Positions 33,623 through 58,656 of a DNA stretch of 64,000 bases are shown here, piece by piece. The translations under genes and the position numbers were made by a program. How positions within the stretch are numbered: the first letter of the stretch is position 1; the number at the start of each line of letters is the position of its first letter. Source of the stretch: Denitrovibrio sp. (GTDB taxonomy: Bacteria > Chrysiogenota > Deferribacteres > Deferribacterales > Geovibrionaceae); assembly GCA_002869185.1 (NCBI GenBank), contig PKTN01000013.1, positions 58,972-122,971 on the forward strand, in the 5' to 3' direction. A model generated the notes under the pieces. That model saw nothing but the letters and a program-made list of their open reading frames with translations, ran no database searches and was not told where the DNA came from.

Positions 33623-34168
33623 TTATACTTTTTGTTCTTTATATAGGCTGAGGTAACCGTCACCATATAGATAGACAACCTTGCCACCTTCGATGAACTC
33701 AGGGAATGAATCGTCTTCACACTCTAATGATTCGAGAAGTTGATACGTTTGATCTGCCACCGAAAGCAGAGTAACAAGCCCATCAAATGTCTCTTTATCA
33801 CCTTTAATCACTTTACAGATTTTACGCACATCCTTCCTGTCGCCAGTGATGATAAGCTTACCTGTCCTGTTATTAAGGTCTATCTCAAAAGGAGGATCGT
33901 TCGTCATGCCATGCATATTTAAAAGAAATTGAATTTTTTCTCTTATGTAGGAAGAGAATGCCAGAATATACTCTAAACTAGGAAGAAATGACTCCTCATT
34001 TTCAGGCATAATATCATCGACGTTTTCAGAGTTCGCAAATCTATCCTCTTCATCAAAAGCTTTTAGCGTATTAAGAAATATTACTGATGTATCAACATTT
34101 TGGCCAGCATCGCCACATGATGTCGAGCTAATACCACAGCTGATTGTATTGGTAGTTTCATTATCCAT
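33623..34168 (-). CDS. Paralogue-family protein of unknown function (most diverged; start placed at ATG 34168)
   Basis: RBS GAGAGG before ATG 34168 (MDNETTNTISCGISSTSCGD...); shares NDPPFEIDLNN..KLIITGDRKDVRKICKVI with the neighbouring ORFs. Confidence 0.7.
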   Translation of the reverse strand: MDNETTNTISCGISSTSCGDAGQNVDTSVIFLNTLKAFDEEDRFANSENVDDIMPENEESFLPSLEYILAFSSYIREKIQFLLNMHGMTNDPPFEIDLNNRTGKLIITGDRKDVRKICKVIKGDKETFDGLVTLLSVADQTYQLLESLECEDDSFPEFIEGGKVVYLYGDGYLSLYKEQKV

Positions 34169-34313
34169 AAAGCACCTCTCAAGCTGTATAAAGCAAGAGG
34201 CGCGCCAAAATATAATATATGTCGCAAACAACATCCGTGTCATTTGCGATCATCATCGATATATCTAACTATATGCTAGACAGAAGAGCACATCCTTGTG
34301 CAAATTTTTAAAA

Positions 34314-34925
34314 TTAAACATTCAGTTCTTTACCATCAGAAAGTATAGAAATAGAATCGCAATAGATAATACTTGCGTGTGGCATCTTTCTATTATCATT
34401 AAAGAGCCATGAATACTTATCTACAACAGCTTCAGGGTTCGAGCTATTCCGATATTCCTCCTGAAACTTCAAAGAATCAGCCATCGCAACGACATGACTC
34501 CCAATAGCGAGTGTTGTTCTGACCGCCTCTTTAAGGTCTGCATTTTCATTAATAAGCCCACTTATCTCGTCAAGATCATCCCTGTCACCCTTAACTGTCA
34601 CTTCATTCTTGCTATAGTCATAGTCAAGTTCCACAGGAGGATTAGATGGAATATCATTTCTCGCATAGACGATATCTAGCAAATATTTTAATCTTGAATT
34701 GAGCTCTTCTAAGTTTTCCATCGATGGTAAGATAAGCTCTTGATCCAAAAATGTCCCTGATGGATCCTCTATTCCCTTTGCAGAAAATGAATTAAGGTCA
34801 TCTGTATTCATAAATTCGTCCAGAGCCTTCTTAAAATTTGAACCATACTCGGTTTCTTTCTTAGTACTTTCTGTTTTTTGCGTCAAAATTACTGTCGATT
34901 GATTCACCATAAAAACATTACTCAT
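34314..34925 (-). CDS. Paralogue-family protein of unknown function
   Basis: MSNVFMVNQSTVILTQ...NLEELNSRLKYLLDIVYARNDIPSNPPVELDYDYSKNEVTVKGDRDDLDEISGLI. Confidence 0.8.
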   Translation of the reverse strand: MSNVFMVNQSTVILTQKTESTKKETEYGSNFKKALDEFMNTDDLNSFSAKGIEDPSGTFLDQELILPSMENLEELNSRLKYLLDIVYARNDIPSNPPVELDYDYSKNEVTVKGDRDDLDEISGLINENADLKEAVRTTLAIGSHVVAMADSLKFQEEYRNSSNPEAVVDKYSWLFNDNRKMPHASIIYCDSISILSDGKELNV

Positions 34926-34934
34926 CACTCTCTC

Positions 34935-35582
34935 CTAAACTTCTAATAATGGTGTTTTTTCAGCCAGAATTGGGCTATATGTCTGCACTACTCTCTCAGA
35001 CCTAAAGTAGGTAATGGTCTCGCCATAACTCATCTTTGGATAGTGAAACTTGCCATCTTCATCAAAAAGATCAGGATATTCTTCCTTAGCAGTCTCTACT
35101 TCTGGATTGTCATGGTTGAAATTCTGAGATTGAAGTGCGTCATACATACCGAGAAAATTATTCCAAATGTCGTTAATCTTCTTAACTTCATCTTTGATCT
35201 CTTTGTTATCATTCATAAGCTGGCTTATCTGATTGATATCTTCCCTATCCCCTTTAACAGTTATCTCTGTTCTGGTGTAGGAATACTCAATCTCCACAGG
35301 TGGGTCAGTTGGAATATCGTTGCGGACAAACATAAGGTCCATAAGATATTGTAAACGTTCAGTAACCTCTTCCAGATTCTCCATATCTGGCAAGCTCAGT
35401 TCCTCATTAGACATTACCGTCCCTGAAATCTCGATCTTAGTCATTGAGAATTCTGCATCAGAAGAATCAAGGAAACTATTAAACATATTCCCGAAAACAT
35501 CGGATGTGTCACTGTTTTTACAGCAACACTTATTTTGCGTCGAAGGTGATATACTGTCATTTACCATAAATGCGTTGTTCAT
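34935..35582 (-). CDS. Paralogue-family protein of unknown function
   Basis: MNNAFMVNDSISPSTQNKCCCK...NLEEVTERLQYLMDLMFVRNDIPTDPPVEIEYSYTRTEITVKGDREDINQISQLM. Confidence 0.8.
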   Translation of the reverse strand: MNNAFMVNDSISPSTQNKCCCKNSDTSDVFGNMFNSFLDSSDAEFSMTKIEISGTVMSNEELSLPDMENLEEVTERLQYLMDLMFVRNDIPTDPPVEIEYSYTRTEITVKGDREDINQISQLMNDNKEIKDEVKKINDIWNNFLGMYDALQSQNFNHDNPEVETAKEEYPDLFDEDGKFHYPKMSYGETITYFRSERVVQTYSPILAEKTPLLEV

Positions 35583-35614
35583 GGCTCACCTCCTAATAAT
35601 CTCTAAGTTAAAAG

Positions 35615-36232
35615 TCACATGGTCTTTGCAGGCTTATCCTCAGCCTTCTCTTTAACGACCTTCCCATTTGTAAGAATTTTCTCTTCGGTAGTATCTTCGT
35701 CCTCTTCTTTCGCCTTGTTATAGATGTCTATTGCGAAAGCATACTTATTCTTATCAGTTCCGCATTTTTCCAATGCATCTTTACGTGCTTGCTCTATAGA
35801 CTCCATGAGCTCTTTATACTCAGCAAGGGCATCATCAGCCTCAGTAGTCGTTGCCTCGACAAAGTCATCCCCGCCCTCGCCAGATTCAGAGTCTTCCTCC
35901 TCTTCCTCCTCAGGGTCTTCCCCGATATAATTCAACAGTAAAAGATATTGCATACGATCAAAAAGTTTTTCAGTCTCGGTCATCTCAGAATCGTCAACTT
36001 TGACTTCTTGATTTGCAGTTACAGCTTCATTATCAATTTGTGGGAAATTTTGTTCGAAGTCTCTAAGCAGATTTTGTGCTGACGAGGAAATATTTACCTC
36101 ATCTTCACGACTAGATAGATTCTTTTCATAGACATCACGAAAGGATGAAAATCCTGTTGAGGTCTTTGTACAGCAGGTTGCAGGTTGCGTCGAAGGTGAA
36201 ATACTGTCATTGACCATAAATGCGTTGTTCAT
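35615..36232 (-). CDS. Paralogue-family protein with shared N-terminus and divergent acidic C-terminus
   Basis: MNNAFMVNDSISPSTQPATCC...ETEKLFDRMQYLLLLNYIGEDPEEEEEEDSESGEGG. Confidence 0.8.
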   Translation of the reverse strand: MNNAFMVNDSISPSTQPATCCTKTSTGFSSFRDVYEKNLSSREDEVNISSSAQNLLRDFEQNFPQIDNEAVTANQEVKVDDSEMTETEKLFDRMQYLLLLNYIGEDPEEEEEEDSESGEGGDDFVEATTTEADDALAEYKELMESIEQARKDALEKCGTDKNKYAFAIDIYNKAKEEDEDTTEEKILTNGKVVKEKAEDKPAKTM

Positions 36233-36258: not shown

Positions 36259-36274
36259 AGCAATTTTAACGCCT
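36259..36274 (-). promoter_or_regulatory. Candidate sigma54-like -24/-12 promoter upstream of the paralogue cluster
   Basis: AGGCGTTAAAATTGCT: GG-N10-GC spacing with TTGCT; the -24 half is weak. Confidence 0.35.
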
Positions 36275-36310
36275 AAAATATGTATCTTCTTACATCATTA
36301 CAAAAATATC

Positions 36311-41857: not shown

Positions 41858-42382
41858 ATGAATTTTAAAGAACTAGAGCCTACTAAACTAAAAGAAAACC
41901 CTTTTACGCTTATAAATAATGACTGGATGTTAATATCTGCTGGCGATAAAGCTAACTTTAACACTATGACAGCTAGTTGGGGTGGTCTAGGTATAATGTG
42001 GCACAAAAACGTCGCTTCTATTGTAGTTCGTCCGACAAGATACACATTCGAGTTTTTAGAGAAATACGACTACTTCACTCTCTCATTCTTCGAAGAAGAG
42101 TACAAAGATGCACTAACTCTGTGTGGCACAAAATCTGGAAGAGATTGCAACAAGGTAGCCGAAGCTGGTTTAACGCCTATATTCGACAATAATGGAATTT
42201 ATTTCGAAGAAGCTAAGATTATTATGGTTTGCAAAAAACTCTACTGGCAAGATATCAACCCAGATAATTTCGTCACAGATTTAGAAGAATTCTATCCAAA
42301 GAAAGATTACCACAGACTTTATATGGGTGAGATTGAGAATATGTATGAGAAGTGGATTATAAACCCATTAGACCTGCAATAA
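41858..42382 (+). CDS. Flavin reductase-like (flavoredoxin-type) protein
   Basis: MTASWGGLGIMWHKNVASIVVRPTRYTFEFLEKYDYFTLSFF. Confidence 0.82.
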   Translation: MNFKELEPTKLKENPFTLINNDWMLISAGDKANFNTMTASWGGLGIMWHKNVASIVVRPTRYTFEFLEKYDYFTLSFFEEEYKDALTLCGTKSGRDCNKVAEAGLTPIFDNNGIYFEEAKIIMVCKKLYWQDINPDNFVTDLEEFYPKKDYHRLYMGEIENMYEKWIINPLDLQ

Positions 42383-43712
42383 CAGGCTTCTGATCTATAC
42401 AACCAGGGCATACCCACTCGACAGCTTCAGTTGAAGACTCTCGGAGGCGTTCCCGCATTCGCACAACATTATCAATGAGCTGTAGGTTAGATTCATTTAG
42501 CCTGCGGCTCATTACAGATTTAAGCATATACTTTCTTTCGTTCAGCTTCTTAAATGACTGCTTATCTTTTGCCTTTATCTTAAACACGACTTTATAGTCA
42601 CCTATCATGGAAGAAAAACTCGCTGGAATAATCATATTAAAATTTTCATCAGAACTTGTTTTAGTACGTTTCACTGATTTAGCACTCATTTTTAAATTCT
42701 TGCGTTCTGGTTGCATCACTGGTGGGTTATTCTGCAATGACTCATATATCTCTCTTAATCTTATAAGTGCTTTTGTTGCGTTTGGAGAGTATGGATTCTT
42801 TTTAATAATCGCTATTAGTTTTTCTTTTTCTGAGCTATGTGGATCAGCCTCTTCACCTTCTCTAACGTCGAAATCTTTGTTAATAAAGACAAATTCACCT
42901 TCGTATCCAGCCATTTTACCAAATGCAGGAGTTTGCGTACCTTCTGTATAAGCAGATACTTTCGATTGAAGATACTGCCCAAGCTCTGAGCCAGTTATCA
43001 CCCTATCTTGGTTGGAATCAGCCGAACCATTAACACCATCAATAAACCTTCTGCGGAAGACAGAATCATCAGGGACTAGCTGGTTCTCTGTTCCAGAAGA
43101 TATAAATTGCCTAACTGGTTTATTAAGTATCTCAATAATAAGTTCAGGTATGGAACGCATAGTAGAGAAGACTGACCCAGAAAAACAACTATCAAAAGCA
43201 AATAACACTTGATTTGCTTTTATCTCCTTAGCCTTCTCAGCAAAAAATGACATAGGCACGCTTCCAGAGATAAACTTCTCTTTGCTAATCTTAGGGTTAC
43301 CAGCATCTTTGAAAACGATGTACCCCTCTTTACCTGAATTAGCTTTAAGAGTGTGACCATGACCAGCAAAGTATATTACAATTCTTCCCCTATCGTTATA
43401 GGCATAACGCCTTAGAAAAGTGTCAAAATTATTTTCGAATTCCCTTTTAGTATTATTAAGTGATTTCTCAATTTTGAAGCCTTTAGAATAGAGGAGTGAA
43501 ACTACAGCATCTATGTCACGTTCAACTCCAGGTAGGTCTGCCCAATTATCATTGTATTCAGATACCCCAGACACAAAAGCAACACTGTCAGTAAATAGTT
43601 CGCCAGCACTGATTTTATTGACTCTATCAGGCGATAATAAAGCCCTATCAGTGGCCTGCGAATTAAAGCTTATAAGTAGTATGGTAGAAAAAAGTAGATA
43701 TTTGAGCATCAT
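42357..43712 (-). CDS. Secreted caspase-like (peptidase C14/metacaspase-type) protein
   Basis: Signal peptide; His motif IVIYFAGHGH, Cys motif VLFAFDSCFSGS; EF-hand-like loop DSNQDRVITGSE. Confidence 0.87.
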   Translation of the reverse strand: MMLKYLLFSTILLISFNSQATDRALLSPDRVNKISAGELFTDSVAFVSGVSEYNDNWADLPGVERDIDAVVSLLYSKGFKIEKSLNNTKREFENNFDTFLRRYAYNDRGRIVIYFAGHGHTLKANSGKEGYIVFKDAGNPKISKEKFISGSVPMSFFAEKAKEIKANQVLFAFDSCFSGSVFSTMRSIPELIIEILNKPVRQFISSGTENQLVPDDSVFRRRFIDGVNGSADSNQDRVITGSELGQYLQSKVSAYTEGTQTPAFGKMAGYEGEFVFINKDFDVREGEEADPHSSEKEKLIAIIKKNPYSPNATKALIRLREIYESLQNNPPVMQPERKNLKMSAKSVKRTKTSSDENFNMIIPASFSSMIGDYKVVFKIKAKDKQSFKKLNERKYMLKSVMSRRLNESNLQLIDNVVRMRERLRESSTEAVEWVCPGCIDQKPVIAGLMGL

Positions 43713-43984: not shown

Positions 43985-44716
43985 TCACTCAAAACTTTTT
44001 ACAATAGAAGTTATAATAAGACCCCATCCATCAACTAGCACAAATAGCATAATCTTAAATGGTACCGAGACCATTACTGGTGGTAGCATCATCATACCCA
44101 TTGACAGGAGTACACTCGCCACAACAAAGTCTATCACCAAAAATGGTAAAAACAACAAAAAACCCATTTGGAAAGCTGTTGACAACTCACTAACCACGAA
44201 TGAAGACAACAGAACTAGATCAGGGATATCTTCTGCTGACTGAGGTCTTGGTTCTCCACTTATTTCCAAAAAGGTGCGAACATCCTTCTTTCTAGTATTA
44301 TACAACATGAATTTACGAACGGGCTTCTTCACTTCTGCTACCATATCCTGAAAAGTTATCTTTTCCTCAAAATAAGGTCCAAAACCTTTATCATACATCT
44401 CAGTGAAAACAGGATTCATTATATAAAGTGTAAGAATCAATGCGAGGCTCAATAACACCTGTGAAGGTGGCATAGAAGGTGTGCCCATTGCCGTTCTAAG
44501 GAGAGACATAACAATAACGATACGAGTAAATGACGTCATTAGCACCAGAAAGCCTGGCGCAATCGTGATAAATGTCATAAGTAGCATCAGTTGCAATGTA
44601 ACAGAAACATCTTGAGGACTTGTCGCCTGCTCCATGCCAAACCTAAATGCAGGAAAAGGTATAGGATCTGCGGCCAATACTGCCGTCATAGGCACAGCAA
44701 GAAAGAGCAGAACCAT
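43985..44716 (-). CDS. fliP: Flagellar export protein FliP
   Basis: FTRIVIVMSLLRTAMGTPSMPPSQVLLSLALILT; SMGMMMLPPVMVSVPFKIMLFVLVDGWGLI. Confidence 0.97.
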   Translation of the reverse strand: MVLLFLAVPMTAVLAADPIPFPAFRFGMEQATSPQDVSVTLQLMLLMTFITIAPGFLVLMTSFTRIVIVMSLLRTAMGTPSMPPSQVLLSLALILTLYIMNPVFTEMYDKGFGPYFEEKITFQDMVAEVKKPVRKFMLYNTRKKDVRTFLEISGEPRPQSAEDIPDLVLLSSFVVSELSTAFQMGFLLFLPFLVIDFVVASVLLSMGMMMLPPVMVSVPFKIMLFVLVDGWGLIITSIVKSFE

Positions 44717-45498
44717 TATCGTTTTTTTAATGACTCTAACCTCTCATTTATTGTATTCCTAGATATATCAACTTCGTCTTTTATAGCAGGAGATTTTTTA
44801 AAGAATTTCATATATGACCCAAAGTCAGTCTTACGAGAAAAACCTGCCTTAATCCTTGCGACTTCATCTTCGTTGCTAATCTTATCTATAAGGTTCATAG
44901 AAGCATCTGTAACACCAATGATATATATCGATTCATCAACTTCATAAAAATAAAGTGTTTTCCTAAGGTCAAGATCTGCCTTGCCTAGTAGGCGTCCCAT
45001 ACCAGGAATATCTGTTAATATTTGTTTTTTAAAGAAAGATTTCGCGATCCAGAAAATAACTAACATAACAGCAAGAACAATGAGCAGGCCCCATATCATC
45101 CTTGCATATGCTTTTTTACCAACTGCTGGTTCTTCTGATATTTTTTTGGGAAATGTGAACGTGACCTTAAGTAACCCCTCTTGAGATAACACCTCAGGAA
45201 CCACGATCTCAGATTCAAAATCCACAATCAGACGTTTTCTTGTGCCATCTGATGTTGTTGTTATTGACTTTATAGGCATATCCCAAAACGTTTTTTCGAA
45301 ATCAATCTCTTCATTCGTCTCAAAGCTAATCACATAGCTTTTATCGAGTTGAAGAGTATTCACATTGGAATAGCCTTTATTAAAACTTATTTTTAATGTT
45401 AATGTTGTGCTGTCCACGTCATACACTATCCCCGCAGCCATTGCCGGCATAGACGATAACAATAGGATAAATATTATATATCTAACGATACATGCCAT
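44716..45498 (-). CDS. fliO: FliO-like flagellar biosynthesis protein
   Basis: Position between fliN and fliP; TM followed by a cytoplasmic FliO-like domain. Confidence 0.65.
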   Translation of the reverse strand: MACIVRYIIFILLLSSMPAMAAGIVYDVDSTTLTLKISFNKGYSNVNTLQLDKSYVISFETNEEIDFEKTFWDMPIKSITTTSDGTRKRLIVDFESEIVVPEVLSQEGLLKVTFTFPKKISEEPAVGKKAYARMIWGLLIVLAVMLVIFWIAKSFFKKQILTDIPGMGRLLGKADLDLRKTLYFYEVDESIYIIGVTDASMNLIDKISNEDEVARIKAGFSRKTDFGSYMKFFKKSPAIKDEVDISRNTINERLESLKKR

Positions 45499-45769
45499 TT
45501 TTGAACATCTCGGTTAAGTCTTCCTTGTCTAATATTTCAGTTATACGCACAGCAAAACTATCTTCCAGTACCATTATCTCGCCAAGTGCAAGCGGTTTAC
45601 CGTTTACAAGAAAGTCAACAGGTTCACCAGATGTCTTAGAAAACTTAAGGATAGTCCCCTTCTCCCAGTTGAGAAGTTCGCGTACTTTAACTAGTTTTCT
45701 ACCCAGCTCCACGTCAACTTCAAATAGAATTTCGCCAAATTCATTTTTAGCTAGTTCGACATTAGTCAT
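45482..45769 (-). CDS. fliN: Flagellar motor switch protein FliN
   Basis: DVELGRKLVKVRELLNWEKGTILKFSKTSGEPVDFLVNGKPLALGEIMVLEDSFAVRITEI. Confidence 0.92.
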   Translation of the reverse strand: MTNVELAKNEFGEILFEVDVELGRKLVKVRELLNWEKGTILKFSKTSGEPVDFLVNGKPLALGEIMVLEDSFAVRITEILDKEDLTEMFKNGMYR

Positions 45770-45778
45770 CTTGTCCCC

Positions 45779-46306
45779 TTACTGAGCCACAAACTCAGTA
45801 AAATACACATTCACTATTGAGCCTTCTGTTATTAAACTATTAAGCCTTCGAAGCAGCTCTTGCTTCAAAATGAGTTTTCCTTGAGCAGAGCTAACCTCTT
45901 CATATCTTTTAGAAGCGAGCACAGTGAGGATTGAATCTCTAAGCTGTGGTTTTCTCATGTCTAACGCTTCAACAAACTTCTTTGTATCATCAAGCTCAAG
46001 TTGGAGCGTAACTCTAAGATATCTCGTTCCACCAGAATCTGCCATATTTACTATGAAATTTTCTAGAGGATATAGCGTTCCTATTCCTGTCCCTTCTTTC
46101 TTCTCTTTCTTTGGAGCTGCTGCTTTCTTAGCTGGCATATTTTCAGCTGTTTCATCAGGTTTTGGCTTTAGGAACATCATGTAACCTGCTCCACCTAACA
46201 CTCCAAGTATTATAAGTAAAAGTAAAACGATTATAATGAGTTTTAACTTCCCACCCTTTTTCTTTTTCGGTTCACTCGATTCTTCTACATTTTCTTCTTC
46301 AGCCAT
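45779..46306 (-). CDS. fliL: Flagellar basal body-associated protein FliL
   Basis: TM plus 'YPLENFIVNMADSGGTRYLRVTLQLEL'. Confidence 0.92.
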   Translation of the reverse strand: MAEEENVEESSEPKKKKGGKLKLIIIVLLLLIILGVLGGAGYMMFLKPKPDETAENMPAKKAAAPKKEKKEGTGIGTLYPLENFIVNMADSGGTRYLRVTLQLELDDTKKFVEALDMRKPQLRDSILTVLASKRYEEVSSAQGKLILKQELLRRLNSLITEGSIVNVYFTEFVAQ

Positions 46307-47052
46307 TATTCCTCTCCTGTATCTTCATCATCAAATAATTGTTTATTAGCTTCAGCAAACTCAGGACTCACAAAATTAACTTCTACACGTCTATTTTTAG
46401 CCCTACTAGCTTCACTGATGTTTGGTGTAACTGGATGGTTCTCTGCATATCCAGCAGCAGATAGTTTTTGTGCGCTAACCTGCTTACTAAGGAAATATTT
46501 CACTACAGCAACAGCCCTAGCTGTGGAAAGCTCCCAGTTTGAAGGGTAAATTGCCGTACTTATTGGAATGTCGTCGGTATGCCCTTCGACCATAATATTA
46601 AATGGGGATTCTTCTATGACTGCAGCAAGTTTATCAAGCAGTGGTTTTGCCTGATCTAATAACTCTGCACTACCAGGCTGAAATAGCATTTTATCTAGGA
46701 TACGGACAGAAACACCTTTCTTTGTCTGAGCAATGGTAACCACCTGAGACATTTGGGCACTCTTTACGTATTCTTTAAGACTTTGACTTACTTTTCTTTG
46801 GACACTTCTAACATTCTGAACAAAGGATAATCTAGAGAGTATATCTTCTTGACTCATCTCTGTTTTATTACCCTCTTTCAGTACTCCGAGTGAACCTTGA
46901 AGTGAACCGAGCGCAACTTTAATCTTCCTCTTATCCATGGATGCCATAGATAGTAGAAGAATAAAGAATGTCATCAGTAATGTTGCCATATCAGCGAATG
47001 TTCCCATCCACAGTGGCAAACCAGGTTTACACTCTTCGCATTTCTTGCCCAA
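46306..47052 (-). CDS. motB: Flagellar motor protein MotB
   Basis: PLWMGTFADMATLLMTFFILLLSMA; OmpA-like VEGHTDDIPI. Confidence 0.95.
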   Translation of the reverse strand: MGKKCEECKPGLPLWMGTFADMATLLMTFFILLLSMASMDKRKIKVALGSLQGSLGVLKEGNKTEMSQEDILSRLSFVQNVRSVQRKVSQSLKEYVKSAQMSQVVTIAQTKKGVSVRILDKMLFQPGSAELLDQAKPLLDKLAAVIEESPFNIMVEGHTDDIPISTAIYPSNWELSTARAVAVVKYFLSKQVSAQKLSAAGYAENHPVTPNISEASRAKNRRVEVNFVSPEFAEANKQLFDDEDTGEE

Positions 47053-47099
47053 ATTAAAACTCCTCGTTCAGATAGATAGAGCTACAATATAAACAGTTT

Positions 47100-47864
47100 T
47101 TAATCAAACTGTGATTTACGCTCTTTAGGTGAAAGATAAGCATTGAGCTTTTGCTCAACGATACGTGGGTTGTCACCAGCCTGTATAGCCATGATACCAC
47201 CTATCATAATCTCTCTGATGAGCTGTTCTTGTGATGAACGATACTCAAGCTTTGCCTTGTATGGTCCACCAAAAAGGTTCGCAAACATAGCACCATACAT
47301 TGTAGTAAGGAGAGCAACAGCCATCGCAGGTCCAATAGAACTAGGATCTTCCATCGATTGCAGCATCGCAACAAGACCAATGAGAGTACCGATCATACCC
47401 ATCGCAGGCCCAAATTCAACAACGATACCCATTACACCCTGCCCAGCTTTATGTCTTTGGACCATATAATCAAGTTCAGTTTCAAGAATATTTTTTATAA
47501 CTTCTGGCTCTGTACCGTCAACGGCAAGCCTTATACCCTTTCTAAGGAATTCATCACTAACCTCATCTTCTGCTGACTCAAGAGAGAGTATTCCGTCTCT
47601 CCTCGCTTTAACAGCGAACTCAACAAGTTGAGCTATAAGAGTCGCAGCGTCATCAAGAGGATATTTGAAGGCTCTTCCAGTAAATTTCATGATAGCCATA
47701 GCTTTATCCATAGGATAACTCATCATGATAATTCCGAAAGTACCACCAAAAACGATAAGAATAGAAGGGACATCGATATAAGGTGCAATACCCGCACCCA
47801 TTATAATCGCTGCGAAAATCAGCGCATAGGCTACAATGGTTCCGACTAGGGTTGCTATATCCAT
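47100..47864 (-). CDS. motA: Flagellar motor protein MotA
   Basis: Four TMs; FGPAMGMIGTLIGLVAMLQSMEDPSSIGPAMAVALLTTMYGAMFANLF. Confidence 0.95.
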   Translation of the reverse strand: MDIATLVGTIVAYALIFAAIIMGAGIAPYIDVPSILIVFGGTFGIIMMSYPMDKAMAIMKFTGRAFKYPLDDAATLIAQLVEFAVKARRDGILSLESAEDEVSDEFLRKGIRLAVDGTEPEVIKNILETELDYMVQRHKAGQGVMGIVVEFGPAMGMIGTLIGLVAMLQSMEDPSSIGPAMAVALLTTMYGAMFANLFGGPYKAKLEYRSSQEQLIREIMIGGIMAIQAGDNPRIVEQKLNAYLSPKERKSQFD

Positions 47865-48042
47865 ACTATCTCCCAGATTTAATAATTCTCACAAGCATGT
47901 ATAAATATGCAGAATTATTACAAATTAATACAATGATATTGTATGACTTTCACTTTAAAGATACAGGACTTACGAGGCATCAGTCAACAGAAATAATATT
48001 CTGAAAAGCAATAGCAGTGCTGTATTACGATATATATCAACG

Positions 48043-48074
48043 AAAAAAAAGCCATGATCATAAACCACGGCTTA
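48043..48074 (-). terminator. Terminator downstream of flgE
   Basis: AAGCCGTG...CATGGCTT followed by T8 on the minus strand. Confidence 0.75.
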
Positions 48075-48095
48075 AATATTTAGTTATTCACTTAC

Positions 48096-50594
48096 TTATC
48101 GTTTAAGTGACATTAGCTCTTTAAGCATCTCATCAGAAGTTGTGATTACCCTTGAATTGGCTTGGAATCCCCTCTGAGTAGTAATCATACCTACAAATTC
48201 TGCCGAAAGATCTACGTTTGAGTTTTCGAGTGCACCAGATGCGATCTCACCTCTGAAACCAGACCCAGGTTTACCTATTGCGCCGTCACCAGAGTTTGCT
48301 GTCGCTTTAAATGTTGTATCACCAACCTTCAAAAGACCTTGCGTATTTGTAAATGTTGCAAGAGATATCTGAGCGATAGTAGATACCTGACCATTTGTAT
48401 AGTAACCAATGATCTCACCTGCAGGGTTAAAGAGTGTAGATTCTAGTGTACCTGTTGAGTATCCATCTTGCTCTGTTCTTGATATAGACCCCTCATCTGA
48501 AGAGATATATATACCATCAAATCTAGCAGGAGTACCAAGCTCCATCTGAATATCATTAATTACACCAGCTCCAGTACCAGTGTCAAAGTTCATAGTAAGA
48601 TTTGCAACCCTCTGACCATTAGGACTAGATAGATAGTTAAACGAACCATCTCCATTAAAATTCAGATATACTTCGTTACCTGTTGTCTCATTGAATGATA
48701 TATTAACATTATCGTCAGGTGAAGTTAGAGAGAGTTTCCACTGGTTATCAAGCGAATCTTCAATCTCAAAGTTGTACTGAAGCGTATGTGCTTCACCTTG
48801 AGAGTCATATATTGTCTGAGAAGTCACCAATGTACCACCATCAGCACTTTGGACTGTCTGGTACTCGAAATAATCGTAAAAAGTATCATAACTGGAGCCA
48901 CCAACTACTTCAAATTTTACGAAGTCGAGTTCATTAGGGTCACCCTTCTCGCCTGTAATCTTTAATTTTCCAGAATTGTCCGCAAAACTAGCAATATGCT
49001 GAAGAACCTCTGTTTAATTTGAAGAATCATATCCAAGATACTCAGCGATTGCAGTACGCATATCATCAAGTGTTGATGTACCCGCAGGGATGCTTGCTGA
49101 TCCAGGAGTAAGTACACCACCAACAGAAGATGAGAATTGCACTATAGCTGTGGCATCAAGCCCTAGACTATCGCCAGAACTTGTAAATAGCTCTGTCATT
49201 GGGTCATTGTCTTGAGCTGTCCTCAAAAATGTACCACTCAGTGTGGACTGAGCAGTCATACCGTATGAAGCAGAAAGACTCGATGATCCCGCTGGAACTA
49301 TATTATTCTCAAACACTGAACCACTATAAGCTTTATCAAGTGATAGACCAGATAAACTAAGTGTTCCAATTGCTGAGTTCGTGTTGTGATCTATGGTGAA
49401 TGCAAACTGACCTGTAGTATTGTCATAAGAGACTGAAAACTCATTCGAGCTAATAACGTTACCGTCAAGCTCACCTTCAATAGCAACAGCTAGGTCTGTA
49501 AGAGTTGTGAAATCTCTACCAGCGTATATCTGGCTTTCAAAATACATTTCACTACTAGACTTAGTATCACCAAGGTCATCATAGGTATTTGCGAGATTAG
49601 AAAGACCAACAGCAAGGAGTGGTGTTCCACTAAAAGAGTCGATCGACACTGTAGCACCAGCACTCATTACTCTATCAACTTTAAGTGTTCCGCCAGTAAC
49701 AGACACATCAAATGCTCCCGTCTGCCCAGCAACAGTATCCATCCGAGCTTCAATAGCATTCGCAAGTCCATTCATAGTAGAAAAATCAGTTCCATATGTG
49801 AATGTGTAAGCTGTTGAGTTCATATAGACCAGAAGTGACTGATCATTTTCGAGGTTCATATTAACATCTGAACCATTGTAAACATATTTCATATCTGTAA
49901 CGCCAGCAGCATGAGCCTAGACCTTTATAGGCTCGTTATCAGACAAGTCCATGTTTGCACCATTTTCACTATAAACAGCAAAGATACTGTCAGCAGGGTC
50001 TGCATAGTGTAAAAGTGATGGATATTCTACTATTGTAGGATTTGCTTCGGTATTTAAAACACCAGAAAGACTGATTTCTGAAGTAGGATTAGCTTGAGCT
50101 GTCTGATAGTCACTAGACAAAATAATGTCTGTTACTGTTCCATCTGTCTGAAGCTCTCCAGTTGCAGGATCAATCATCCAACCTTGAACATTATAACCAC
50201 CAGGGTTCGTCAAAGCACCAGTAGAGTCAAAGTTAAAGTCTCCAGCTCTTGTGTATATATATTCATTAGCACCTTCGCCGCGCATAACAAAGAAGCCCTC
50301 TCCCTGAATGGCAAGGTCAGAGTTCTTTGCTGTGGTTTGCATAGTACCTGTTTCAAACATTGTATCGACTGCAGCAAGGTAACTACCAAGACCAACCTGT
50401 CTTGGATTGATACCACCTCTTGCATCTGTAGGTGCTTTACCACCTACAAGCGTCTGACTAAGCAGATCTTGAAACACAGCTCTACCAGATTTGTAACCAA
50501 CAGTGTTTACGTTAGATATGTTGTTACCCAACACATCCATAGCCTTCTGGTTTACACCCAGACCACTAATGGCTGAATAAAGTGACCGCATCAT
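48096..50594 (-). CDS. flgE: Flagellar hook protein FlgE, 833-codon frame interrupted by in-frame TAG (49917-49919) and TAA (49014-49016)
   Basis: ORFs 49917..50594, 49014..49892 and 48096..48830 are all in one frame. N-terminus MMRSLYSAISGLGVNQKAMDVLGNNISNVNTVGYKSGR, C-terminus EFVGMITTQRGFQANSRVITTSDEMLKELMSLKR. Confidence 0.85.
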
Positions 50595-51299
50595 TTAAGC
50601 ACCTCCAAGAGAAGCATCTCTTACCGAAGTGACTTTATCTGCAGGGACATCACTTCCATCGACTTCATAAACAACAGCATTACCGACTGTTTTAACACCT
50701 GTAACTAAACCGTTACCGTATGTTGTAACATCTATCTCTTCTCCGTCGAGACCTGTGGCTACAACAGAGAATGTGTATTTTCCTTCATCGACGAGGTTTC
50801 CATCAGAATCTGTTCCATCCCAATAGAATGTGTTCATATCTGTATCTGTAACAGACGGATTAAAATCTCTCACATAGTTACCGGCACCATCTTTAATAAC
50901 TACGGTAGTCTTAAATGGTACTTCATCAGCCTCAAATGAGACTGCGGCAACTCCACCAGCCATGTATGTATTATTACCTTCATACTCCACTAGCTTTCCT
51001 ATGTAGCCTGATGCAGACATCATGTACTGTTGAGTATTTGTAGCTTCATTGCCCGCGGCCATCTTAGCGATGTTCTCTTCCATGCTTGTTAAAAGCTCTA
51101 CCTGAGAGAACTGTGATGTTTGTTCCATCATAGCAGCATCATCCATTGGTGCTGTAGGGTCTTGATTCTTTAATTGTGTAATAAAGAGATTGAGGAAATC
51201 TGATTGCCCAAGGGTTCCAGAAGCAGCCTCGTCTCTCTCTTCAAATTGTGTCGTATCGTAAGTGGTATAGTTCACTTCTTTTGTTGATGAAATTTGCAT
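50595..51299 (-). CDS. flgD: Flagellar hook capping protein FlgD
   Basis: LGQSDFLNLFITQLKNQDPTAPMDDAAMMEQTSQFSQVELL. Confidence 0.95.
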   Translation of the reverse strand: MQISSTKEVNYTTYDTTQFEERDEAASGTLGQSDFLNLFITQLKNQDPTAPMDDAAMMEQTSQFSQVELLTSMEENIAKMAAGNEATNTQQYMMSASGYIGKLVEYEGNNTYMAGGVAAVSFEADEVPFKTTVVIKDGAGNYVRDFNPSVTDTDMNTFYWDGTDSDGNLVDEGKYTFSVVATGLDGEEIDVTTYGNGLVTGVKTVGNAVVYEVDGSDVPADKVTSVRDASLGGA

Positions 51300-51320
51300 A
51301 ATATCCTCCGATCTTCGCCC

Positions 51321-52472
51321 TTAGGCGTAGACACCATCTGCCTCATCCGTTTCTTGTTCATTGTTTAAGTCTGCTAAAACACCCATATTGATGTTTCCAC
51401 CCTTTCTGCTTCCTTTTCCTTCTCTTCCTTCCCAGCCAGCAAATTCATGGTGTTCAGATTCACTAAATAAAAATTCTAGATTCTCTACTGTCACACCTTT
51501 ATCTGCTAGTTGTTGACGAAGTCCTTCAGCGTTGTTCGCAAACAGGTTTCTAGCGGTTTCAGACTCGAACATAACTTTTCCTGATATCTTTCCAGCCTGC
51601 TCGGTTAATTCAATATTTACTCTACCGAGCTCCTGTGGATGAAGCTGAATATTCAGCTTTGTCGCTTTTTGATTCTTCGCAAGTTCCACAAGCTCTGCGA
51701 ATTTCATAATGTCCCTAGGGGACTCTATTCTTATTTCTGCTTTTATCACTTTCTCTGACTCATCAGATTTAAGTGTAAAATTATTTTCAATATTATTTGT
51801 ATTAGGTTTTTCAGCCTTTGCCTCTGTAGCAAGCTCAAGAAGCTTATCTTTAATATCCGCAGGAATATATTCAGAATTCTTTTGAACCATAGACAAGAAA
51901 GCTTCTTTTTTAGGTTCGTTCTGCTTGCTTGTATCTTCCTGTGTTGTTTTCCCATCAGTTTTAACAACAGTTAGCTGAGGTGTGTTTTTTTGCTGTGTTT
52001 GAAGAGCGACAATCTTATCTAGTGACTGCTCCAAAATAATATTTTCTTTTGGTGTCCTGTCACCCTCTGATCCTAAAATGCTCTTAGCAATATCTGTCAT
52101 TGCTGTCTCTATATCTCCAACTGCTTCTCCAGCTTCCTGCATCATTTCCACGATTCTGTCTAAAAGCTTCTTCACATCTTCTGGTGATTCAGCCTCTGCC
52201 AATAAACGTTTAAGCTCTGCTTTCTCTTCCTTTGGAATATCAAGATTCTCTATAACTTCCTCAGGCGTCTCCGGTTCTTCCGCTTTAACGCTTTTACTCT
52301 TGGTTTCTGCAGTGTCTGTTTCAGCTGGTTTTTCAGAACGGTCCAGATATTTTTTAAATACATTTTCGAACTCACCTTGACCAGTGCTGGCAGCCTCTTT
52401 GGGCAGCTCTATATTTGGTTGCGCACTGAAAAGGTTAAGTATGGACATATTCTCCATTAGACACCTCCGCAA
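51321..52472 (-). CDS. fliK: Flagellar hook-length control protein FliK (start may be internal)
   Basis: C-terminal LNIQLHPQELGRVNIELTEQAGKISGKVMFESETARNLFANNAEGLRQQL. Confidence 0.9.
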   Translation of the reverse strand: MRRCLMENMSILNLFSAQPNIELPKEAASTGQGEFENVFKKYLDRSEKPAETDTAETKSKSVKAEEPETPEEVIENLDIPKEEKAELKRLLAEAESPEDVKKLLDRIVEMMQEAGEAVGDIETAMTDIAKSILGSEGDRTPKENIILEQSLDKIVALQTQQKNTPQLTVVKTDGKTTQEDTSKQNEPKKEAFLSMVQKNSEYIPADIKDKLLELATEAKAEKPNTNNIENNFTLKSDESEKVIKAEIRIESPRDIMKFAELVELAKNQKATKLNIQLHPQELGRVNIELTEQAGKISGKVMFESETARNLFANNAEGLRQQLADKGVTVENLEFLFSESEHHEFAGWEGREGKGSRKGGNINMGVLADLNNEQETDEADGVYA

Positions 52473-57405: not shown

Positions 57406-58656
57406 ATGAGTTATATTGATTTTTTTGAGTTCAAAGAACATCCATTCAGGATAACACCTGACGTTGAGTTCTATTTTACATCCGAGACTCACTCAGGGTC
57501 TTTCGAATCACTGAAATATTTTGTCGGCTCAGACGAAGGCTTTTCTACACTTATAGGTGAGCCAGGAACTGGCAAGACCATCACTCTGCGCAAATTCATA
57601 AATGAACTCCCAAAAGATGTTGAATACGCTTACATCCTCTTCCCTTCACTCGAACCTGAAGATATGTTTCGTGCTGTTTTGGAAGATTTTGGTTACAAGA
57701 TCGAGCAAGGGGTCTCAAAGAACACTCTATTCTCTGGGTTCCGTGATTTTCTCACAGATAAGAAGAAGCAAGGTAAAAGGATACTCCTTATTATAGATGA
57801 AGCTCAAAACCTGCCAATCGAAACAATGGAAGAGCTGCGTATCCTATCTAACCTCGAGACTGAAAAAGAGAAGCTCATACAGTTTGTTTTAGCTGGTCAG
57901 CCTGAACTGGCAGATAAGCTAAACTCACAGAAGCTACGCCAACTTAAGCAGAGGATATCTCTCCAAACAGAGCTATCACTACTTAACCTGCAAGAGATCG
58001 AAAGATATGTTGTTTTCCGCCTATCCAAAGCAGGATTTAACGGGAAATACCCTAGTAATAAATTCTATAAGAAATTACAGAATATAACAAAAGGAAACCC
58101 TAGGCTTATCAATCTCACCATGGAGCGTGCCCTTATGGCGGCATACCTCAAGCAGAGTAGTTTTTTAGTCAATGAGGACATAGAGACAGCTGCTGAGAGC
58201 CTAAAATTAAACGAACAAACGACTGCTCCTACTGAGACTAATAGCAATAAGATCACTTACCTATTAGTCGCTATAATAATAGCCATGGCTGGTCTCTTAG
58301 TTTATCAGTTTATGCAAAAACAGCCTCCTGTCGAAACTAAACCTACTGTCATTAAACAAGAACCAGAACCAGTAAAAGATATTATAGTAAAGCCAAAACC
58401 AACCCCTAAACCTAAGCAGGCAGAAGAGCCTGTAATAAAAAAGAAATCTACTGTCAAAAAAGGATACGTCATAACTGACAACCTAAACCTGCGATCCAAG
58501 CCTACAACCAAAGAGAAAAATATTCTAATGAAACTAAACAAAGGAACATCTGTTATTGTAAAAGGAAATGTAGGAAAATGGATAATGGTAGAGACCTTAT
58601 CTGATACTCCAGTTATCGGCTGGGTATATAGTGACTTTATTCTTATTCCGGAGTAG
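57406..58656 (+). CDS. ExeA/GspA-like AAA ATPase with TM and C-terminal SH3b domain
   Basis: FFEFKEHPFRITPDVEFYF; GEPGTGKTITLRKFI; LLIIDEAQNL; C-terminal NLRSKPTTKEKNILMKLNKGTSVIVKGNVGKWIMVE. Confidence 0.88.
   Translation: MSYIDFFEFKEHPFRITPDVEFYFTSETHSGSFESLKYFVGSDEGFSTLIGEPGTGKTITLRKFINELPKDVEYAYILFPSLEPEDMFRAVLEDFGYKIEQGVSKNTLFSGFRDFLTDKKKQGKRILLIIDEAQNLPIETMEELRILSNLETEKEKLIQFVLAGQPELADKLNSQKLRQLKQRISLQTELSLLNLQEIERYVVFRLSKAGFNGKYPSNKFYKKLQNITKGNPRLINLTMERALMAAYLKQSSFLVNEDIETAAESLKLNEQTTAPTETNSNKITYLLVAIIIAMAGLLVYQFMQKQPPVETKPTVIKQEPEPVKDIIVKPKPTPKPKQAEEPVIKKKSTVKKGYVITDNLNLRSKPTTKEKNILMKLNKGTSVIVKGNVGKWIMVETLSDTPVIGWVYSDFILIPE

Follow-up and report, generated by a model that had tools for sequence, protein, structure and literature searches.

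An N-terminal signal directs flagellar proteins, and others exported along with them, to the flagellar type III system; for Campylobacter FlgM, export is driven by the N-terminus (PMC2764114). FlgM is among the late substrates (PMC13344023). Flagellar genes make up a large share of the Desulfovibrio vulgaris sigma-54 set, and flagellar activator sites may lie 40–70 bp downstream of sigma-54 promoters (PMC4641369). The flagellar sigma-54 regulator of D. vulgaris also targets hypothetical proteins (PMC3333781). Campylobacter FspA, CiaB, CiaI and FlaC are non-flagellar proteins with a non-Sec N-terminal signal, and their secretion depends on the flagellum.

A tandem of four genes in Denitrovibrio sp. 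was analyzed and compared with these systems. Three of its proteins belong to a family that resembles FlgM (PF04316) in a disordered N-terminus, a D-x-V-x-[LI]-S-x-x-A motif from about residue 40, a sigma-54 promoter in this genome and occurrence in genomes with FlhA. FlgM lacks the folded core of ~130 residues, and the family lacks the FlgM domain past the motif. As with the Campylobacter proteins, the genes lie outside flagellar operons and have a flagella-linked promoter; export is shown for those proteins, and for the family we infer it. Its hosts are mostly free-living bacteria, unlike the Campylobacter secretors. The D. vulgaris flagellar regulon (DVU1063/FlbD-type) likewise has sigma-54 promoters both at flagellar genes and at genes for hypothetical proteins.

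The gene cluster and its core domain

The window, the whole stretch of DNA analyzed, is 64,000 nucleotides long (C10:58972-122971) and belongs to a genome of 2.78 Mb. All four minus-strand ORFs and the N-termini quoted in the initial annotation were present when ORFs were inspected, and the tandem with a common N-terminal peptide in genes 2–4 is real. The genes are:

Gene 4, 35615..36232, minus strand: 205 aa; the leader MNNAFMVNDSISPSTQ and, at residue 44, the motif DEVNISSSA; also a helix, an acidic tail and a conserved C-terminal helical region; orthologue in congener G002.
Gene 3, 34935..35582, minus strand: 215 aa; leader as in gene 4, plus core domain.
Gene 2, 34314..34925, minus strand: 203 aa; related leader MSNVFMVNQSTVILTQ, core domain; structure modelled.
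Gene 1, 33623..34168, minus strand: 181 aa from the ATG at 34168; leader match absent, core diverged, own promoter.

Genes 4 and 3 start identically (MNNAFMVNDSISPSTQ), gene 2 starts with MSNVFMVNQSTVILTQ, and gene 1 is without the leader. The true start of gene 1 is most likely the ATG at 34168, with ribosome-binding site GAGAGGTG and N-terminus MDNETTNTISCG, and not 34243. Gaps in the 4-3-2 series are 32 and 9 bp. On either side of the cluster are genes that we take to be glycyl-tRNA synthetase-like and DJ-1/PfpI-like. Judged by sequence, similarity among the cluster genes is far beyond chance. As paralogues, genes 2 and 3 are close to each other (core ~35–38% identity, E = 4e-37), and gene 1 is remote from both (E = 2e-8). 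The NDIP core earlier ascribed to three of the proteins is closely conserved between genes 2 and 3 and only remotely in gene 1, which has TNDPPFEIDL...LIITGDRKD in place of NDIPxxPPVE...VTVKGDRxD. Gene 4, as annotated, keeps the leader and helix and then turns acidic; a motif and the RxQYLLxL helix are all that it shares with the others besides the leader. No further copies were found in the 2.78-Mb genome.

The core of genes 1–3 is an undescribed, unnamed and widespread family of ~200-residue proteins. The initial annotation recognized no family, and searches of Pfam, NCBIfam and PHROGs agreed, giving chance-level matches only. The PDB gave no match by sequence (best E = 0.03, to designed proteins) and nothing by fold with two models as queries (best E = 1.5). 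None of these libraries names the family. The annotation's picture of divergent bodies as diversifying substrates was not upheld, since genes 1–3 have a single conserved core domain in common, which occurs in several phyla. Profile searches reached Geovibrionaceae, a second family of the phylum, Desulfovibrionales (58 of 150 genomes), Desulfarculaceae, Planctomycetota and Cellvibrionales, with genera including Desulfovibrio, Solidesulfovibrio and Dethiosulfatarculus, as well as genome G129.

In the typical form, a Ser/Thr-rich leader is followed by '..GI....PFEL....G.VRV.GDHPDK..IE.LF.DNPDL...' and a helical C-terminal half; GDRxD replaces GDHPDK in the window members. The initial profile scan of genome contigs with a window protein as query gave no match, probably because of this divergence, and an alignment of the short form succeeded as query. 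Some Desulfovibrionales members reach ~430 residues with two or three tandem core copies (e.g., G545:C1:170624-171772 and G479:C8:60354-61514). Structure prediction, a check proposed with the annotation, returned a disordered leader and an ordered core. In the AlphaFold model of gene 2, residues 1–65 are disordered and the core at 70–201 is ordered. This model and that of a Dethiosulfatarculus member agree on a helix, beta-hairpin, helix and long helix after the leader, with pLDDT <50 over residues 1–65 and about 1–71, respectively.

Synteny was checked as well: two congeners each have three genes at the same locus. In G001 all three are core genes, and G002 has an orthologue of gene 4 (L018:8910-9500, 44% identity) with two core genes. 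The sister genus has a single gene in the same area, adjoining the DJ-1 gene in most genomes, with different neighbors in G009 and G011. In other Geovibrionaceae, a more typical form adjoins a gene that is presumably htpG-like. Gene 1 clusters in the tree with one gene per congener, and genes 2 and 3 cluster with another set; therefore, the tandem dates from within the genus or shortly before it. From synteny and tree together, the simplest account of the cluster is a local, genus-specific expansion from one ancestral gene.

The leader and its motif

Leader DNA of genes 3 and 4 is identical at 46 of 48 nt, with both differences synonymous, and identity falls to 22 of 60 in the next stretch. 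This looks like a local gene conversion or duplication of 48 bp. The leader also recurs in a relative: the G002 orthologue of gene 4 matches at 42 of 48 nt, with the following 60 positions aligning poorly without gaps, and keeps 14 of 16 leader residues (three synonymous and two non-synonymous codon changes) beside a diverged next stretch. The pattern fits a segment copied between neighbors and then held by selection.

The constant 16-residue leader put forward in the annotation is genus-specific, and only general features remain outside the genus. The general form is a leader that is predicted to be disordered, is rich in Ser/Thr and often has D-x-V-x-[IL]-S-x-x-A near residues 40–50. Ser/Thr/Asn/Gln content of the leaders is 0.22–0.48, against a background median of 0.18. 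The pattern [VILA]-x-[IL]-S-x-x-[AVL] starts at residue 40–50 in gene 4 and in about half of the other lineages, and is missing or degenerate in genes 1–3. FlgM of the same genome has the motif at residue 40. An unrelated pair of small proteins (G000:C5, ~92,000) has it at 45–47, each with its own sigma-54 promoter; leader features are common to gene 4 and this pair, and the bodies are unrelated. Because ~10% of other proteins also contain the regular expression, the motif's weight lies in its position and company, not in its letters. The leaders are polar, and neither a hydrophobic stretch nor a Sec or prepilin signal was seen by eye. Cys residues, unusual in flagellar substrates, occur in the leaders of genes 1, 3 and 4 and speak against export.

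The two C5 proteins (L116:1551-1910 and 1988-2461) have no Pfam family, and their leader motifs read DSVSLSPEA and DQVELSAEA. A unit like 'LSPEAYAAIKEYNPEMLISLGY' occurs twice in the first. Next to a Cellvibrionales member, a 578-aa protein without a Pfam family (L073:2047-3783) has an N-terminal DQVQLSLSS motif and no sigma-54 site.

Sigma-54 promoters and the link to flagella

Promoters were scanned with a sigma-54 matrix made from the published consensus. The relevant features of the window are:

36259..36275, minus strand: candidate sigma-54 -24/-12 promoter TAGGCGTTAAAATTGCT, 43 bp upstream of gene 4 (P = 0.002); would drive genes 4-3-2.
34192..34208, minus strand: candidate sigma-54 promoter TTGGCGCGCCTCTTGCT, 40 bp upstream of gene 1 (P = 0.003).
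43985..52472, minus strand: flagellar operon with FliP, FliL, MotB, MotA, hook/rod proteins, FlgD and FliK, 8–16 kb from the cluster.
At -41 of the FliK start near 52457: sigma-54-like site CTGGCACCATTCTTCCT, with -12 element TTCC.

No promoter of its own was found for gene 3 in the matrix scan. The gene 1 promoter is the sole match without mismatch to TTGGCRCGNNNNTTGCT in the 2.78-Mb genome; with up to two mismatches, this pattern has 94 matches genome-wide and its reversal 45. Outside Planctomycetota, most members have a site at -40 to -65. Of the 321 genes at the loci examined, a site scoring at least 10 lies within 90 bp upstream of 12, and 11 of these are family or gene 4-type genes, the twelfth being fliK of the window. 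For most members, dinucleotide shuffles gave P values of 0.001–0.03; combining 13 representatives by Fisher's method gave P = 1.9e-13. Further Desulfovibrionales members have a site scoring at least 9 in 10 of the 16 cases whose ORF could be placed. No clear promoter was found for the planctomycete members tested or for G129.

Other strong sites in the genome precede nifH, PII, amtB, flhG, flgH, flgM and fliK. FlgM, FlgN and FliK were assigned by Pfam, and nifH, PII, amtB, flhG and flgH are presumed identities. Recovery by the same scan of nifH, PII and amtB, which are recognizable classic sigma-54 targets, indicates that the sites are of a working type, yet also that sigma-54 here serves non-flagellar genes. 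Known roles of sigma-54 include nitrogen, pili and others besides. The family genes are very probably under sigma-54 control, as read from these sites. FlbD-type GGCA-N4..7-TGCC sites were absent at the window genes, and exact inverted sites were found in one Cellvibrionales locus only.

FlhA is encoded in 87 of 88 carrier genomes, each genome counted once. It is present in 23/23 first-found carriers and in 8/9 carriers of the planctomycete class, where the exception is a genome that is 72% complete. In Desulfovibrionales, 58/58 carriers and 76/92 non-carriers encode FlhA (P = 2.6e-4, uncorrected for kinship and RpoN); the planctomycete class by itself gives no significant association (P = 0.26). 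FlhA might stand in for RpoN or genome size. Most family genes are located outside flagellar operons. Membership of the family in the flagellar regulon is probable. The promoter link is strong and the flagellar link good, and export would follow by inference.

The family gene of G049 follows the gene for an unrelated short protein (L046:9104-9619), which stands behind the strongest promoter of the set, a near-perfect sigma-54 site (TTGGCATGCTATTTGCT); this parallels gene 4.

Proposed export and alternative roles

Flagellar proteins carry N-terminal export signals and flagellar sigma-54 targets include hypothetical proteins; the family is therefore best taken as flagellar-regulon proteins that are probably exported. 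In full, this preferred but tentative reading has sigma-54 flagellar-regulon proteins as likely substrates of flagellar type III export, with the leader as export signal. Sigma-54 RNA polymerase and, presumably, a flagellar activator would use one promoter for genes 4-3-2 and another for gene 1. The first 60–70 residues would be kept unfolded as a putative export or chaperone-binding leader, which in gene 4 and many relatives bears the FlgM-like D-x-V-x-[IL]-S-x-x-A near residue 45. The helix-hairpin-helix core may be cargo or regulator. Passage through the flagellum itself is a step that may well occur, and we propose it with reserve. Less secure, though possible, is the broader idea of a family in several phyla that is exported via the flagellum under sigma-54 with a portable leader recombining onto different bodies. 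With promoter and FlhA data added, a delivery role appears to be the best reading of the leader. The annotation's delivery idea survives in changed form, with a constant leader local to the genus and bodies that are one conserved domain plus gene 4.

The main rival to export is a cytoplasmic regulator or chaperone of the sigma-54 flagellar regulon, which would bind sigma-28 or export components in the manner of FlgM or FlgN and use the disordered leader as its partner-binding segment. Promoter, FlhA and motif evidence also fit this, and the motif opens the Pfam FlgM domain, a portion of which binds sigma-28. The remainder of that domain is missing, however, and the varying copy number and leader recombination within the genus are unusual for a core regulator; we consider this role rather unlikely. 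FlgM was absent from the 25 Pfam families listed, of 31 that matched the 27 members at E ≤ 1. The NCBIfam model FlgM_jcvi matched the leader of one Desulfovibrio member weakly (E = 0.032), and the true FlgM of this genome scores 8e-18 against the FlgM profile.

A sigma-54-dependent role elsewhere, at the exterior or in nutrition (type IV pili, nitrogen), would account for FlhA through a shared need for RpoN or a free-living lifestyle. Sigma-54-type sites also precede nif, PII and amtB genes in this genome, a homologue in G048 lies near genes that we take to be pseudopilin-like, and the FlhA association is without phylogeny correction (planctomycete class, P = 0.26). This role is nevertheless unlikely, and slightly more so than the regulator, given that inspection revealed no Sec or prepilin leader, that the diverse carriers nearly all have FlhA, and that the same kind of site stands at fliK, flgH and flhG. 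Improbable is a purely DNA-level conservation of the leader, by recent 48-bp gene conversion or as an operator downstream of the promoter, with a functionless peptide. The near-identity of the gene 3 and gene 4 leaders (46/48 nt, both differences synonymous) with its sharp edge suits it, as do possible flagellar activator sites 40–70 bp downstream of sigma-54 promoters (PMC4641369), but the G002 orthologue keeps 14/16 leader residues, with three synonymous and two non-synonymous codon changes, beside a diverged stretch, and gene 3 has the leader without a promoter of its own.

If the export reading is true, extra-protein export via the flagellum would be a widespread trait with its own conserved family, beyond a few pathogens, and the leader motif, GDHPDK core and sigma-54 promoter would form a sequence tag for finding more substrates. 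Even without export, a large unnamed family is placed in a sigma-54, flagella-linked context, and its function is directly testable in motile Desulfovibrio.

Two other genes of the window were noted. The 451-aa product of the gene at 42357-43712, next to the flagellar operon, has a Caspase domain (Peptidase_C14) and a hydrophobic N-terminus. An AAA ATPase with a C-terminal SH3_3 domain (57406-58656) has an ExeA-like layout.
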